Positions 31,427-43,729 of a stretch of DNA of 64,000 nucleotides are shown in pieces. The notes below the pieces were generated by a model. That model was not told the origin of the DNA and searched no databases. It worked only from the letters and a program-made list of their open reading frames with translations. A program made the translations under genes and the position numbers. This DNA is from Natrinema salinisoli (GTDB lineage: Archaea; Halobacteriota; Halobacteria; Halobacteriales; Natrialbaceae): assembly GCF_020405205.1 (NCBI RefSeq), contig NZ_CP084469.1, positions 3,038,001-3,102,000 on the forward strand, written 5' to 3'. Position 1 is the stretch's first letter; each line of letters starts with the position of its first letter.

Positions 31427-33022
31427 TCAACTGAACTTCTGGACCGTCACGTTCAGCGTATCCAGATCGACGATCGGGGCGAACCCGGCGTCGGGATCGA
31501 TGTTGACGCTCTTCTGGAAGTCCGTCTGGGCCTGCCAGCAGCCGGAGTTGATCGCGAGCACGTCGTGGTACTTGCCGAAGCCGAGCTTGTGGACGTGGCC
31601 CGTGTGGAAGATGTCGGGCACCTCGTCGATGATGAGATAGTCTTTTTCTTCGGGTGCCAGCCGGGTGTGACCGCCGAACTGCGGCGCGACGTGGCGCTTC
31701 TTGAGGAGGTGGTACATCGCCTTGTGGGGATCGTCGTAGCTGGCTTTTTCTTCCGGGAGCTCCGCGATGACTTCGTCCAGCGAGACGCCGTGGTACATCA
31801 GGACGGAGACGCCCTCGAGGGTCACCATCGACGGGTTGCTCACGATCTGGGGATCGTGTGCGGACATGATCTCCCGCAGCACCTCGTCGAATCCCGGCTG
31901 CGGTTCGGCGAGTCGAACCGCGTCGTGGTTCCCCGGAATCATGACGATCTCGATGTCGCCCGGGATTTTCTTCAGGTGCTCGCTGAACGCCTCGTACTGC
32001 TCGTAGATGTCGACGATGTCCAGTTCCTCGTCCTGGTCGGGGTAGACGCCGACGCCTTCGACCATGTCGCCCGCAAGCAGCATGTACTCGACGTGTTCAG
32101 CTTCCGGAGTGTGGAGCCAGTCGGCGAAGTCGTTCCACGCGTCGGCCATGAACTCCTGACTGCCGACGTGGACGTCGCTGATCAGCGCCGCCTGCACGTG
32201 GCGATCCGCGGTCGACGGCTCGTGGGTGCGAGGGATGTCCGGGAAGTGCATCGAATCGACGAAGGCGATCCCCGAATCGTCGGCCAGCGTCCCCTCCATC
32301 GCCAGCACCTCGTCGCAGAGTAGCTCCTCGACGAGATCGGCGTACTCCCTGTCTTTCATCACGAGCCACGGGAACGTTCCCGTCGCGTCCTCGAGTTCGA
32401 TCAGCCAGTGACCGCTGGCGGTCGACCGGATGTCGTTGACCAGCCCGACCATCGCGACCTCGCTGCCTCCCGCCATACCCTGAATGGCCGTCGCCGGACG
32501 GTGGTTGACCCGTCCCCGCAGTTTCGCACCCAGCCGATCGAGCCGGTCCCGGAAGACGGAAACGAAATCGTCGTACTCGCCCGTTCCCGTACTCTGGCCG
32601 GTCATGTCGCCAACGATCTCGAGCGATCGCTGGGCGGGATCGGACGATCGGTTCGCGGACGAATACCCCTTCGTTTCGACTGGAGATCGGCCGGCTGATT
32701 CCGCCCCCGGACCGGTCACGGTTCCAGTTGAAACGGAGGGGGGCGACTCCGTCGGCGGCGAGTCGTCGTCGACGGCTGCGTCAGCTCCCGAACCGGATCT
32801 CGAGGGAGCGCTCTCGTCGGACGTCGAGAGGACCGCCTCCACGTGATCGGTCCGAACGACCAGCGCGTCGTCGGGAATCTCGTCGAGGACGCGCTCGAGC
32901 GCCGCGGCCGGATCCTCGGCCGCCGCGAGCCGCGTCACCGCCTCGCGCTCGGCGTTGTACCCGCGGCTTGTGAGTTCGCTGACGATTCGAGCGGGAGCCT
33001 CGAGTGGCACTACACGTCGCAT
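31427..33022 (-). CDS. polD1: DNA polymerase D small subunit DP1
   Basis: 531 residues; exonuclease/regulatory subunit of the euryarchaeal replicative polymerase PolD. An N-terminal helical domain (1-65) and a low-complexity linker (about 66-130) precede an OB fold (about 175-250) and a calcineurin-like phosphoesterase domain. The latter's motifs are intact: LISDVHVGSQEF, LLAGDMVEGVG, MIPGNHDAVRLA, VLMYHGVSLDE and IFHTGHVHKLG, so 3'-5' exonuclease activity is expected. The linker-coding DNA contains two ORB-like sites in opposite orientation. It is divergent from the signal peptidase gene. Confidence 0.95.
   Translation of the reverse strand: MRRVVPLEAPARIVSELTSRGYNAEREAVTRLAAAEDPAAALERVLDEIPDDALVVRTDHVEAVLSTSDESAPSRSGSGADAAVDDDSPPTESPPSVSTGTVTGPGAESAGRSPVETKGYSSANRSSDPAQRSLEIVGDMTGQSTGTGEYDDFVSVFRDRLDRLGAKLRGRVNHRPATAIQGMAGGSEVAMVGLVNDIRSTASGHWLIELEDATGTFPWLVMKDREYADLVEELLCDEVLAMEGTLADDSGIAFVDSMHFPDIPRTHEPSTADRHVQAALISDVHVGSQEFMADAWNDFADWLHTPEAEHVEYMLLAGDMVEGVGVYPDQDEELDIVDIYEQYEAFSEHLKKIPGDIEIVMIPGNHDAVRLAEPQPGFDEVLREIMSAHDPQIVSNPSMVTLEGVSVLMYHGVSLDEVIAELPEEKASYDDPHKAMYHLLKKRHVAPQFGGHTRLAPEEKDYLIIDEVPDIFHTGHVHKLGFGKYHDVLAINSGCWQAQTDFQKSVNIDPDAGFAPIVDLDTLNVTVQKFS
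32665..32686 (-). promoter_or_regulatory. origin recognition box-like site inside polD1 (reverse)
   Basis: Reads ATCTCCAGTCGAAACGAAGG plus GGT on the minus strand, nearly the same as the origin box at 38184-38211. It encodes DP1 residues about 113-120 (SPVETKGY) in the low-complexity linker. Confidence 0.65.
32719..32744 (+). promoter_or_regulatory. origin recognition box-like site inside polD1 (forward)
   Basis: Reads GGTTCCAGTTGAAACGGAGG followed by GGGGC. It faces the site at 32665-32686 about 32 bp away, in the arrangement of an inverted ORB pair. It corresponds to DP1 residues about 93-102. Confidence 0.65.
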
Positions 33023-33254
33023 TCGCGAGCGCGGGCAAAAGGATAGCGGATCCCCCGCTGCCGAGAGTTCGATCCAGTTGGGCAGGATCGGCGACTCTAT
33101 TTAAGTAACGCGTACGGAACCATCGCTGAACGGTGTCCTCATTACTCGCGTGGACCTCGACCGATATCACATCGCTCACCAATATCACAGTACCTGCGTG
33201 GACCGCCGAGCGTCGCCGGAAGTTTGATATCTAGTTCGCCGTAATCGGTTGCCA

Positions 33255-34130
33255 ATGGACGGTCCCGACGGCGGCGAACGGAACAACGATCGATCCGATC
33301 CTCGCGACGCGCGCTCGGGACCACAGCGTTCGACGGACGACGCCGGGGATCGTCGGCCACGGCCCGGCGCGAAGGAACGACCCGATCGCGACAGGGTAAC
33401 GATCGATGACGACGGAGTTCTCCGCTGGTTCCTCGAGACCGACGACCGGACCGTCACGGTCTGTCGGGACGCCGCGACGATCGTCGCTCTCGTCCTCGTG
33501 ATCGGTCTCCTCCTGTTCGGTATCAACGGCACCTGGCCGCCGTTCGTCGCCGTCGAGAGCGGGAGCATGGAGCCCAACATCCAGGAAGGGGATCTCGTAT
33601 TCATCGTCGACGATGGCCGGTTCGTCGGCGACGATGCCGTCGCCGGAACCGGTATCGTCTCCCTCGAGAGCGGACGGGAGAGCGGCCACGAGAAGTTCGA
33701 CGCCCCCGGCGACGTCATCGTGTTCATGCCGAACGGTGATCCGAAGCGGACGCCGACGATCCATCGCGCCCACTTCTGGGTCGAGGCGGGCGAGAACTGG
33801 GTCGCCACGAAAGCCGATCGCGAGTTCATGAAGGGCGCGAGCTGCAACGAGCTCCTCTCGTGTCCGGCACCCCACGACGGGTTCATCACGAAAGGCGACG
33901 CCAATCCGGGGTACGACCAGTTGCCGCAGTCGGGTGCGAAAACGACCGTCATCAGTCCGGAGTGGGTGACCGGAAAAGCGATGGCCCGCGCCCCGTGGCT
34001 CGGTGAGATTCGATTAGCCGTCGGTTCGATACAGGCGCTGACCGGAATCGGATCGGCCGCCATCGTCATCGCTACGGGTGTGGTCACGCTCGTCCTGCTC
34101 GGGGCGGCCGCCGGCGGCCGGGATCCGTAA
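33255..34130 (+). CDS. sec11: signal peptidase I (S26), paralog 1
   Basis: 291 residues. A disordered, charged N-terminus (1-55) leads to VTIDDDGVLRWFLETDDRTV, a membrane helix (about 72-90), and the catalytic Ser in VAVESGSMEPNIQEGDLVF. PTIHRAHFWVEAGENW holds the conserved His and FITKGDANPGYDQ the Asp of the archaeal Ser-His-Asp set. A second membrane helix closes the protein (about 264-285). It removes signal peptides from secreted proteins. The gene is divergent from polD1 and followed 97 bp later by a paralog. Confidence 0.92.
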   Translation: MDGPDGGERNNDRSDPRDARSGPQRSTDDAGDRRPRPGAKERPDRDRVTIDDDGVLRWFLETDDRTVTVCRDAATIVALVLVIGLLLFGINGTWPPFVAVESGSMEPNIQEGDLVFIVDDGRFVGDDAVAGTGIVSLESGRESGHEKFDAPGDVIVFMPNGDPKRTPTIHRAHFWVEAGENWVATKADREFMKGASCNELLSCPAPHDGFITKGDANPGYDQLPQSGAKTTVISPEWVTGKAMARAPWLGEIRLAVGSIQALTGIGSAAIVIATGVVTLVLLGAAAGGRDP

Positions 34131-34227
34131 CGGGCTCGCCGAGGGTCTCGGTTCCGATGGCGGAGCGCTCGGTCGCCGAACACCGCGAACAGAAAGTTGA
34201 TTGGCGGGCCGGGCAAAGGGGGTGACG

Positions 34228-35193
34228 ATGAGCGGTTCTAGCTCCGGGGATCCCCCAGGTGATTCCGGCGACGACGTTCGTGAGAACGAGGATCGAAGCG
34301 CTGGCTCGTCACAGACCCAACCCTCGCCTGAGGAACGTCCGCGGAGCACCGCCGAGAACGAGGCCGTAACGATCGAAGACGACGGCGTCCTCCGCTGGTT
34401 CCTCGAGACCAACAACGAGACCGTCGTGATGACGCGAGACGTGCTGAGTAGCGTCGCCATCGTCGCCGTTGTGGGCCTCCTTCTGTTCGGAATCAGCGGT
34501 ATCTGGCCCCCGCTAGTCGCCGTCGAGAGCGGCAGCATGGAGCCGAACATGCAGAAAGGCGATCTGATTTTCGTCGTCGATGACGGCCGATACGCCGGCG
34601 ATGCCGCCGTCGAGGGGACCGGCGTCGTCACCCTCGAGCGCGGGCAAGAAACGGGCCACGAGAAGTTCGGCAACCCCGGCGACGTCATCGTCTACAGACC
34701 CGACGGGAGCCAGCTGCAAACCCCGGTAATTCATCGCGCCCATTTCTGGGTCGAAGAGGACGAAAACTGGGTCGAGACGAAAGCCAGCGAGGAGATCGTT
34801 GGCGATGCGACCTGCAGCGAGGTCGCTACCTGTCCCGCCGAACACGCCGGCTTCGTCACGAAAGGCGACGCTAACCGCGGATACGATCAATTGGCGAGAT
34901 CCGGTGCGAGAACCGACGTCGTCAAACCCGAATGGGTCACCGGCAAGGCGATGTTCCGAATTCCGTGGCTCGGCCACGTCCGGCTGACCTTCGACGAGCT
35001 CCTCGGCGGGATGCTCGTTCCGACTGCCCCCTCGAGTACGCCGATGTACGAGCCCGTTCCGGTGACGCAGACGCCGACGCCCGCCGGACCCGAAACGACC
35101 AGTGGTGGAGGCCACGGTGACTTCGCCGGGGCCGCCGCTCTCGCCACTACCGGGGCCGGACCTGCAGTTGCGGTCGGCCGGGCCGGTCCCTGA
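34228..35193 (+). CDS. signal peptidase I (S26), paralog 2, without C-terminal membrane helix
   Basis: 321 residues, clearly a tandem duplicate of the preceding gene (shared VTIEDDGVLRWFLETNNETV, VAVESGSMEPNMQKGDLIF, PVIHRAHFWVEEDENW, FVTKGDANRGYDQ). The Ser, His and Asp are retained. After WLGHVRLTFDELLGGML the C-terminal helix of paralog 1 is replaced by a Pro/Thr/Gly-rich tail (PSSTPMYEPVPVTQTPTPAG). It therefore has one membrane anchor and may differ in topology or substrate range. Confidence 0.9.
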   Translation: MSGSSSGDPPGDSGDDVRENEDRSAGSSQTQPSPEERPRSTAENEAVTIEDDGVLRWFLETNNETVVMTRDVLSSVAIVAVVGLLLFGISGIWPPLVAVESGSMEPNMQKGDLIFVVDDGRYAGDAAVEGTGVVTLERGQETGHEKFGNPGDVIVYRPDGSQLQTPVIHRAHFWVEEDENWVETKASEEIVGDATCSEVATCPAEHAGFVTKGDANRGYDQLARSGARTDVVKPEWVTGKAMFRIPWLGHVRLTFDELLGGMLVPTAPSSTPMYEPVPVTQTPTPAGPETTSGGGHGDFAGAAALATTGAGPAVAVGRAGP

Positions 35194-35454
35194 TTCGCCC
35201 GCCGAACTAATTTCGGCTCGTTTGACGTTTTTTCGTCTCCCCTTTCGTCCGTTCGACCGCAGTGAACGATTATTCGATACTTAGTGAATATCGATTCATA
35301 CGATCTCGAGTGGAAATAGAGGGGTCAGGTCCACTCTGACGATCCGTCGCGTCGCAACGCCGATCCGACTACGGCAGGCTGTCGGAACGGGAGCGGGAAT
35401 CGAGACGAAAAGAACGACAGATGCAGTGAGTGGACGCCGGACGGAGCCGATTCG

Positions 35455-37218
35455 TCAGTTTTCGAATCGGGCCTGGACGAACGGCTGCACGTCGTCGATA
35501 TCGCTCAGTCGGGAGTCGCTCAGTAACACGGCCTCCGTCTCTTCGAGTGGAACGGAGAGACTGATCTCTTTGGTTCGACCGTACCGGCCCTTCGAGACGA
35601 CGACGGCGTTGACGATCCCGAGCATGTCGAGCTCGCTGATGAGATCCGTCACTCGCCGCTGGGTCAGGACATCTGCGTCGATCTCCTCGCACAGGCGCTT
35701 GTAGATGTTGAACACCTCGCCCGTGTTGATGCTGTGGACGCCGTTTTTCTCGAGCAAAATGATCGCGAAGAGGACGAGTTTGCTCTGCGTGGGGAGGGTC
35801 CGGACGACCTCGACGACCCGATCGAGTTCGATCTTGTCCTGGGCCTGCCGGACGTGTTCCTCGACGATCGTTTCGGCCTGTGACCGTTCGGCCAGTTCGC
35901 CCGCAGTCCGAAGGAGGTCGAGCGCGCGTCGCGCGTCCCCGTGTTCCTGTGCGGCGAAGGCCGCACACAGCGGGATCACGTCGTCCGAGAGTGCGTCGCC
36001 CTTGAACGCGACGTCCGACCGGTGGTTGAGAATATCCCGCAGCTGATTCGCGTCGTAGGGCGGGAAGACGATCTCCTCCTCGCCCAGCGACGACTTGACC
36101 CGCGGATCGAGGAAGTCGGTGAATTTCAGATCGTTCGAGATGCCGATGATCGAGACGCGCGAGTTCTCGAGTTCGGAGTTCATCCGGGAGAGGTTGTAGA
36201 GGGTGTCGTCGCCGCTTTTCTCGACGAGCTTGTCGATCTCGTCGAGCATGATCACGACGACCCGCTCGTCGTAGTCGACGGCGTCGAAGAAGACGCTGTA
36301 GACCCGGTCGGTCGGCCACCCCGTCATCGGGACTTCCTCGAAAGAGTCCTTGTCGTCTTCGAGTTCCGCAATTCGGTCGTCGACCTCGTCGCGCGCGTCG
36401 AACGGCGTCGACTCGAGCGGGTGCGCGGGCGAATCGGTTGCCGATGAGTCGCCCTGATCGGTGCCGGCGACGGCCGTCGGATCTGTGGTATCCGAGGACG
36501 CTACGGCCGGAGCCGATTCCGAAGACCCCTCCGTTTCGAGTGGAGAATCGACCGACGTAGCGTCGGTATTGGGTCCAGGAGAACCGTCTCCGTGCGAGTC
36601 GGTTTCGTCGCTCGAGACGAAATCGAAGGGGTCCGACGCCGTCTGGTCATCTGACAGGTCGTCGGTTCCAGTTTCCTCGGCGCTGCGACGCTCCGCGTCG
36701 GCGTCGTACTCGTCGAGGGCGTCCAGCAGCGACTCGAGTTCCGCGACTCGGTCGTCGATGCGCTCTTTGTTCTTGTCGATGAACTTGTTCGCGAGTTGCG
36801 CGAGGACGCGGTACTGGGTATCGGTGACCTCGCAGTTGATGTACTCGACGTCGCAGGGAACGCTGTACTTTTGAGAGGTACTCTCGAGTTCCTTGCTGAC
36901 GAATTTGGCGCTCGCGGTCTTGCCGGTCCCCGTTTTCCCGTAGATGAGAATATTCGATGGCGTTTCACCGCGGAGTGCGGCGACAAGGATCGTCGCCATC
37001 TTGTTGATCTGATCGCTCCGGTGGGGGAGCTCGTGTGGGGTGTAGGACGGACGAAGCACCTCCTTGTTCTCGAAGATCGGTTCGCCGCTGAGGAGGTCGT
37101 CGAACAACCCCTGATTCGACTCTTCGTCGTCGAGATCGGCGCTCTCGAAGTCCGTCGAGAACCCGCTCGTTCCGTCACCGTCGTCTGAGTCAGTGATCTC
37201 TGAGTTGTCGTCTGACAT
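35455..37218 (-). CDS. orc1/cdc6: Orc1/Cdc6 replication initiator
   Basis: 587 residues, larger than the ~400 typical of archaeal Orc1/Cdc6. AAA+ motifs: Walker A NILIYGKTGTGKTASAKFV, Walker B VVVIMLDEIDKLVEKSGDDT and sensor-1 VSIIGISNDLKFTDFLDPR. The C-terminal winged helix (about 490-587) binds ORBs. The extra length is an acidic Ser/Asp/Thr-rich insertion (about residues 155-285) between Walker A and Walker B. It sits next to the origin, with one ORB 13 bp upstream of its ATG and another inside its insertion-coding DNA, which suggests autoregulation (inference). Confidence 0.96.
   Translation of the reverse strand: MSDDNSEITDSDDGDGTSGFSTDFESADLDDEESNQGLFDDLLSGEPIFENKEVLRPSYTPHELPHRSDQINKMATILVAALRGETPSNILIYGKTGTGKTASAKFVSKELESTSQKYSVPCDVEYINCEVTDTQYRVLAQLANKFIDKNKERIDDRVAELESLLDALDEYDADAERRSAEETGTDDLSDDQTASDPFDFVSSDETDSHGDGSPGPNTDATSVDSPLETEGSSESAPAVASSDTTDPTAVAGTDQGDSSATDSPAHPLESTPFDARDEVDDRIAELEDDKDSFEEVPMTGWPTDRVYSVFFDAVDYDERVVVIMLDEIDKLVEKSGDDTLYNLSRMNSELENSRVSIIGISNDLKFTDFLDPRVKSSLGEEEIVFPPYDANQLRDILNHRSDVAFKGDALSDDVIPLCAAFAAQEHGDARRALDLLRTAGELAERSQAETIVEEHVRQAQDKIELDRVVEVVRTLPTQSKLVLFAIILLEKNGVHSINTGEVFNIYKRLCEEIDADVLTQRRVTDLISELDMLGIVNAVVVSKGRYGRTKEISLSVPLEETEAVLLSDSRLSDIDDVQPFVQARFEN
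36525..36547 (-). promoter_or_regulatory. origin recognition box-like site inside orc1
   Basis: Minus strand reads TTCTCCACTCGAAACGGAGG plus GGT, matching the origin boxes. It encodes residues about 224-232 (DSPLETEGS) of the acidic insertion. Confidence 0.6.
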
Positions 37219-37230
37219 TCGTCGTACTGA

Positions 37231-37252
37231 ACCCCCTTATTTCGAGTGGAAC
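37231..37252 (-). promoter_or_regulatory. ORB1, next to orc1 start codon
   Basis: Minus strand reads CGTTCCACTCGAAATAAGGG plus GG. It is 13 bp upstream of the orc1 ATG and overlaps the expected transcription start. Confidence 0.75.
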
Positions 37253-37838: not shown

Positions 37839-37869
37839 CCCCCCCCCACCCCTTCGTTTCGAGTGGAAC
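37839..37869 (-). promoter_or_regulatory. ORB2, reverse orientation, with long C/G tract
   Basis: Minus strand reads GTTCCACTCGAAACGAAGGG followed by GTGG and a run of nine G. It is the left member of the inverted pair that flanks the CTAG-rich core. Confidence 0.82.
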
Positions 37870-38183: not shown

Positions 38184-38211
38184 TCTCCAGTTGAAACGAA
38201 GGGGTGGGGGT
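38184..38211 (+). promoter_or_regulatory. ORB3, forward orientation
   Basis: Reads TCTCCAGTTGAAACGAAGGG followed by GTGGGGGT. It is the right member of the inverted pair, about 315 bp from ORB2. Confidence 0.82.
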
Positions 38212-43703: not shown

Positions 43704-43729
43704 AAACCCCCTCATTTCGACTCGAGACG
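43704..43729 (-). promoter_or_regulatory. isolated ORB-like site
   Basis: Minus strand reads CTCGAGTCGAAATGAGGGGG and then TTTT, very close to ORB1. It is in non-coding DNA about 5 kb from the origin. Confidence 0.5.

Follow-up and report, generated by a model that had tools for sequence, protein, structure and literature searches.

The polD1 gene of Natrinema salinisoli contains, within its coding sequence, an inverted pair of ORBs that recurs in the same reading frame in 133 of the 140 haloarchaeal polD1 loci compared. Codon usage, spacing, and base conservation indicate that this is almost certainly a DNA-level element under selection. We predict from these comparisons, with a probability of roughly 0.5, that the pair is a conserved Orc1-binding element within the gene, distinct from an origin, that tunes polD1 transcription.

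An inverted ORB pair in the DP1 linker

The window, that is, the whole stretch of 64,000 nucleotides that was analyzed, displays the gene order polD1 (minus strand), two signal-peptidase-like genes, orc1 (minus strand), oriC1, and a GTPase gene. The elements relevant to the pair are as follows, with ORB scores given relative to a maximum of 37.5.

31427–33022, minus strand: polD1, gene for the DP1 subunit (Pfam DNA_pol_E_B and Metallophos)
32666–32686, minus strand: ORB 1 of the polD1 pair, TCTCCAGTCGAAACGAAGGGG on the polD1 coding strand, score 36.0
32687–32720, no strand: spacer between the polD1 21-mers, 34 bp, conserved in length, with sequence and GC at gene background
32721–32741, plus strand (opposite polD1): ORB 2 of the polD1 pair, GTTCCAGTTGAAACGGAGGGG, score 32.5
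35455–37218, minus strand: orc1/cdc6, initiator gene of oriC1 (Pfam Cdc6_C, Cdc6_lid, and AAA)
37849–37869, minus strand: left ORB of oriC1 followed by an extended G-string, GGGGTGGGGGGGGG, score 36.4
38184–38204, plus strand: right ORB of oriC1 followed by an extended G-string, GGGGTGGGGG, score 36.2

The first-pass annotation had described two near-consensus ORBs in inverted orientation in the polD1 linker, and our analysis confirmed them with essentially unchanged coordinates. The pair sits in the variable linker of DP1, upstream of the catalytic part of the protein and ~5 kb from oriC1. ORB 1 encodes SPVETKG, and the coding strand across ORB 2 reads PSVSTGT. Both boxes agree with the consensus of the origin boxes, in GAAAC and in the GGGG string as well. 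The weight matrix used for scoring was derived from the oriC1 boxes of 110 loci (191 boxes), with polD1 sequences left out; by this measure both polD1 boxes fall in the range of the oriC1 boxes, and the highest score in fifteen simulated 64-kb windows, which served as the null, was 10.1. A pattern search of the 4.7-Mb genome returned six exact matches to TCCANTYGAAACNNAGGGG: polD1 and oriC1 hold two each, orc1 holds one, and the sixth lies ~30 kb away. A reversed control pattern had no match across 41 genomes of the family.

Conservation of the pair in haloarchaea

The comparison set comprised the source locus and those of 139 other genomes. Start-to-start spacing of the two 21-mers was 55 bp in 116 of the 133 loci with the pair, 52 bp in 10, and 67–76 bp in the remaining 7; a distance of 55 bp between 21-mer starts is equal to 57 bp between 19-mer starts. 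Both polD1 boxes scored >20 in 82/140 loci and at least one did so in 117/140. Since both exceed 20 in only the 82, erosion of one box is common, as exemplified by the minus box in several f5 genomes. Haloarcula japonica, by comparison, has the pair in its exact form. Across the 116 loci with 55-bp spacing, the mean majority-base fraction was 0.85–0.86 in the boxes versus 0.46–0.48 in the spacer and flanks. The spacer itself had a fraction of 0.46 and a GC content of 0.65, identical to that of the whole gene.

A collection-wide scan with a loose paired pattern, covering 84,980 prokaryote species and 257 Gb, returned 101 places. Among the 80 matches listed of these 101, all were haloarchaeal and 79 were in polD1; the polD1 places among the matches listed were all in the same frame, and 69 were spaced 57 bp. 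The paired pattern was not found in viral contigs and plasmids. The linker pair was absent from the non-haloarchaeal polD1 genes (loci L163–L182) as well as from polD1 of the haloarchaeal small-genome lineages (loci L146–L151). Together, the simulated-window null and the collection-wide scan rule out a chance origin of the polD1 boxes. A by-eye look for co-evolution of the polD1 boxes with variant origin boxes gave no clear sign.

One non-haloarchaeal family (L163, L164, L167) carries a single ORB-like TCTGCAGTGGAAATAGAGGGG in polD1 with a score of ~17. It is located at codon ~350–395, a gene position different from that of the haloarchaeal pair, and may be there by chance.

Selection on the DNA sequence

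In a synonymous-shuffle test that preserved both the protein and the codon usage (100 shuffles per gene), the real gene outscored all 100 shuffles in 133/140 loci for the plus box and in 129/140 for the minus box. The five strongest codon biases among 457 conserved columns, ACT at T99, CCA at P114, GTT at V97, GGA at G100, and TCT at S113, all lie within the polD1 ORBs. GAA at E116 and GGG at G119, ranked seventh and eighth, are also ORB codons; of the top eight, codon 6, beside the likely GTG start, is the sole column outside the ORBs. Across loci, ORB 1 retains CCA in 125/129, GAA in 136/136, and GGG in 124/131, while ORB 2 retains ACT in 112/113, compared with ~11 expected, GTT in 103/104, and GGA in 119/120. 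Third positions that the ORB leaves unconstrained (S98, V115, T117) vary. Because all columns share one tree, the other codon columns act as a control for relatedness.

Position 13 of the ORB is G in the minus box of 125/133 loci, whereas origin boxes favor A (86%). An A at this position would place a phenylalanine in the DP1 linker, which suggests a compromise between protein and DNA.

The idea, put forward in the first-pass annotation, that the linker was shaped by selection for a DNA site is strongly supported by the codons, the synonymous shuffles, the fixed spacing around a free spacer, and the collection scan. When polD1 linkers were compared across relatives, the ORB bases proved to be conserved and did not vary freely. 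The linker peptide PSVSTG...SPVETKG would thus appear to be largely a by-product of DNA-site selection, and the polD1 linker a clear-cut example of a DNA-binding site dictating part of a protein.

Predicted control of polD1 by Orc1

Most genomes have polD1 near orc1. In the non-adjacent genomes, where orc1 is 14–193 kb from polD1, both boxes score >20 in 7/10, versus 75/130 with adjacent genes (Fisher p = 0.52); dependence of the pair on orc1 adjacency was not seen. A gene-linked role is favored because the pair persists in most genomes in which polD1 is not beside orc1. That most genomes nevertheless keep the two genes close leaves room for an origin-related role.

Judging from the likeness of the boxes to those of oriC1, Orc1 is very likely the binder of the pair, although several Orc paralogues exist in haloarchaea and any of them might be the binder instead. 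In the model we favor, two outward-facing ORBs, held in a nearly fixed 57-bp register by selection on DNA, would be occupied by Orc1, probably by two protomers in a defined arrangement. The bound complex may, with less certainty, tune polD1 transcription from within the gene as a roadblock whose strength would be set by the amount of free active Orc1. The orc1 gene, with one ORB at its start and one inside, would come under the same feedback.

Control of polD1 is our leading guess for the main function of the pair, held at slightly below even odds. It is favored because the pair persists at a distance from orc1, because orc1 has boxes of its own, because a satellite box precedes a rhodanese-domain gene, and because the geometry in polD1 is rigid, which speaks for a defined complex over loose titration. 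Transcriptional control by a member of the Orc1 family has a precedent in Sulfolobus Orc1-2, a DNA-damage regulator (PMC9738581); Orc1-2 is, however, a non-initiator paralogue, while the polD1 boxes match the initiator's own origin boxes. A repressor or roadblock acting ~290 bp into a coding sequence would be unusual, and this counts against control of polD1.

The ORBs of orc1 itself are:

36526–36546, minus strand: ORB inside orc1, encoding SPLETEG in a linker insertion, score 32.3
37232–37252, minus strand: ORB just upstream of the orc1 start codon, score 31.6

The ORB inside orc1 is codon-conserved in Natrialbaceae (S225 TCT in 62/66, P226 CCA in 69/73). A remnant of an inverted partner is visible at G215 (GGA in 49/55); in some genomes this decayed partner lies ~46–48 bp away.

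The satellite ORB (L142:1993–2013, outside the window; score 36.2) lies ~30 kb to the right of oriC1 and ~70 bp upstream of the rhodanese-domain gene. It was present upstream of this gene in 10/10 Natrialbaceae loci checked and in none of the other-family loci examined. It accompanies the rhodanese-domain gene although the distance to polD1 varies greatly, and it has no extended G-string.

A broader proposal, which we put forward tentatively as somewhat less probable than control of polD1 itself, is that Orc1 acts both as initiator and as gene regulator through a regulon of ORBs without the extended G-string. Its putative members would be the ORBs in polD1, those within orc1 and ahead of it, and, for Natrialbaceae, the one before the rhodanese-domain gene. 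Such a regulon would couple the supply of both replicative polymerase and initiator to how active the origin is; within it, the paired polD1 element would bind a defined Orc1 dimer from its intragenic position.

Possible titration of Orc1

The main rival to Orc1-dependent control of polD1 is titration, raised as a possibility in the first-pass annotation. Here the pair would be an Orc1 reservoir that is duplicated shortly after initiation at oriC1, reducing the free Orc1 and so blocking re-initiation. We consider this unlikely as the main function, yet a serious candidate. The pair is near oriC1 in most genomes, accounts for one third of the exact ORB matches of the genome, and is without the G-string that origin firing requires; as non-origin ORBs close to an origin, within the distance given above for the window, the two boxes have the property by which a titration locus would be recognized. 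There is also a haloarchaeal precedent in Haloarcula hispanica oriC2D, an ORB cluster for which titration of Cdc6E has been proposed (PMC3936714). Like the polD1 boxes, those of oriC2D are non-origin ORBs near an orc/cdc6 gene, but they are intergenic and number 11, downstream of cdc6E, whereas polD1 has one fixed intragenic pair that is not tied to orc1 adjacency. Two boxes form a small reservoir next to eleven. Moreover, what matters in simple titration is how many sites there are; neither a rigid 57-bp register nor a location in polD1 would be required. The pair is also kept where orc1 is 14–193 kb distant.

In bacteria, E. coli datA is proposed to prevent re-initiation by binding the initiator, and datA together with intragenic and promoter DnaA boxes illustrates how non-origin initiator sites modulate initiator availability or gene expression. 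These sites differ from the polD1 pair in being bacterial, in serving another initiator, and in having no sequence relation to it.

The haloarchaeal origin studies consulted placed their predicted ORBs in intergenic regions next to cdc6 genes (PMC3528665, PMC4595724), and intragenic initiator sites would for this reason escape notice. No earlier report of ORBs in polD1 was found in the accessible parts of the open-access literature searched. Whether by control of polD1 or by titration, the pair points to an unreported way in which Orc1 acts on a replication gene or is retained by it, and an order-wide paired site in the replicative polymerase gene offers a testable handle on limits to initiation or on the matching of replisome supply.

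Comparison with oriC1 and less probable explanations

The polD1 pair shares with the haloarchaeal oriC1 ORBs the core YTCCASTYGAAACGRAGGGG and the outward inverted orientation. It differs in being intragenic, in the distance between boxes (~57 bp versus ~340 bp at oriC1), and in having neither AT-rich DNA between the boxes nor the extended TGGGGG. This extended halophile G-string is absent after both polD1 boxes of the source genome, and among all loci at least four G in the five positions after T19 were found in 2/133 and 0/133 of the polD1 boxes versus 129/191 origin boxes.

These features bear on the suggestion of the first-pass annotation that the pair is an auxiliary origin element. As an auxiliary or ancestral origin it would load Orc1, and perhaps MCM, or loop to oriC1, thereby aiding initiation. 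The outward inverted arrangement, as at the oriC1 boxes, and the position of the pair beside oriC1 in most genomes fit such a role. An AT-rich unwinding element was not found between the polD1 ORBs, however, as the 34-bp spacer has the average GC content of the gene (65%); the extended G-string, which is reported to be essential for H. hispanica oriC1, is missing; and the pair is retained in most genomes with a distant orc1. A second origin is improbable because both the unwinding element and the G-string are lacking, and the auxiliary-origin proposal is disfavored on the same grounds.

It is highly improbable that PSVSTG...SPVET[KE]G is conserved as a peptide motif of the DP1 linker, and of Orc1, with the likeness to ORBs merely following. 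The reading frame and core peptide are constant across loci and Orc1 carries a similar peptide, but codon choice follows the ORB, being fixed at its constrained positions (GAA 136/136; ACT 112/113) and free at its unconstrained ones, and the same DNA is present at the intergenic oriC1 boxes. Codon conservation rules out the peptide as the sole cause.

Retention of the inverted repeat as a stem-loop of the polD1 transcript has hardly any likelihood and is unsupported, given that there is no general covariation between the arms: the repeats could pair in RNA and show slight arm-to-arm association at positions 6 (p = 0.014) and 13 (p = 0.004), but for most variable positions agreement between the arms is no higher than in permuted arms, position 13 is a standing mismatch (G in 125/133 minus boxes versus A in 55/133 plus boxes), and the same sequence also occurs at the intergenic oriC1 boxes.

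Additional observations in the window

Wherever the codon alignment has Val at codon 5 of the polD1 frame, the codon used is GTG (82/82 loci), and the biased CCA directly follows it. The GTG at 33008–33010 is probably the true start of polD1.

The two signal-peptidase-like genes between polD1 and orc1 (33249–35193) are arranged in tandem and are 77% identical over 300 bp; they had no Pfam match and were named by eye. Two weaker ORB-like sites were also observed, one at 35304–35324, downstream of orc1, with a score of 17.6, and another at 43707–43727, ~5.5 kb to the right of oriC1, with a score of 23.3, both relative to the null maximum of 10.1.
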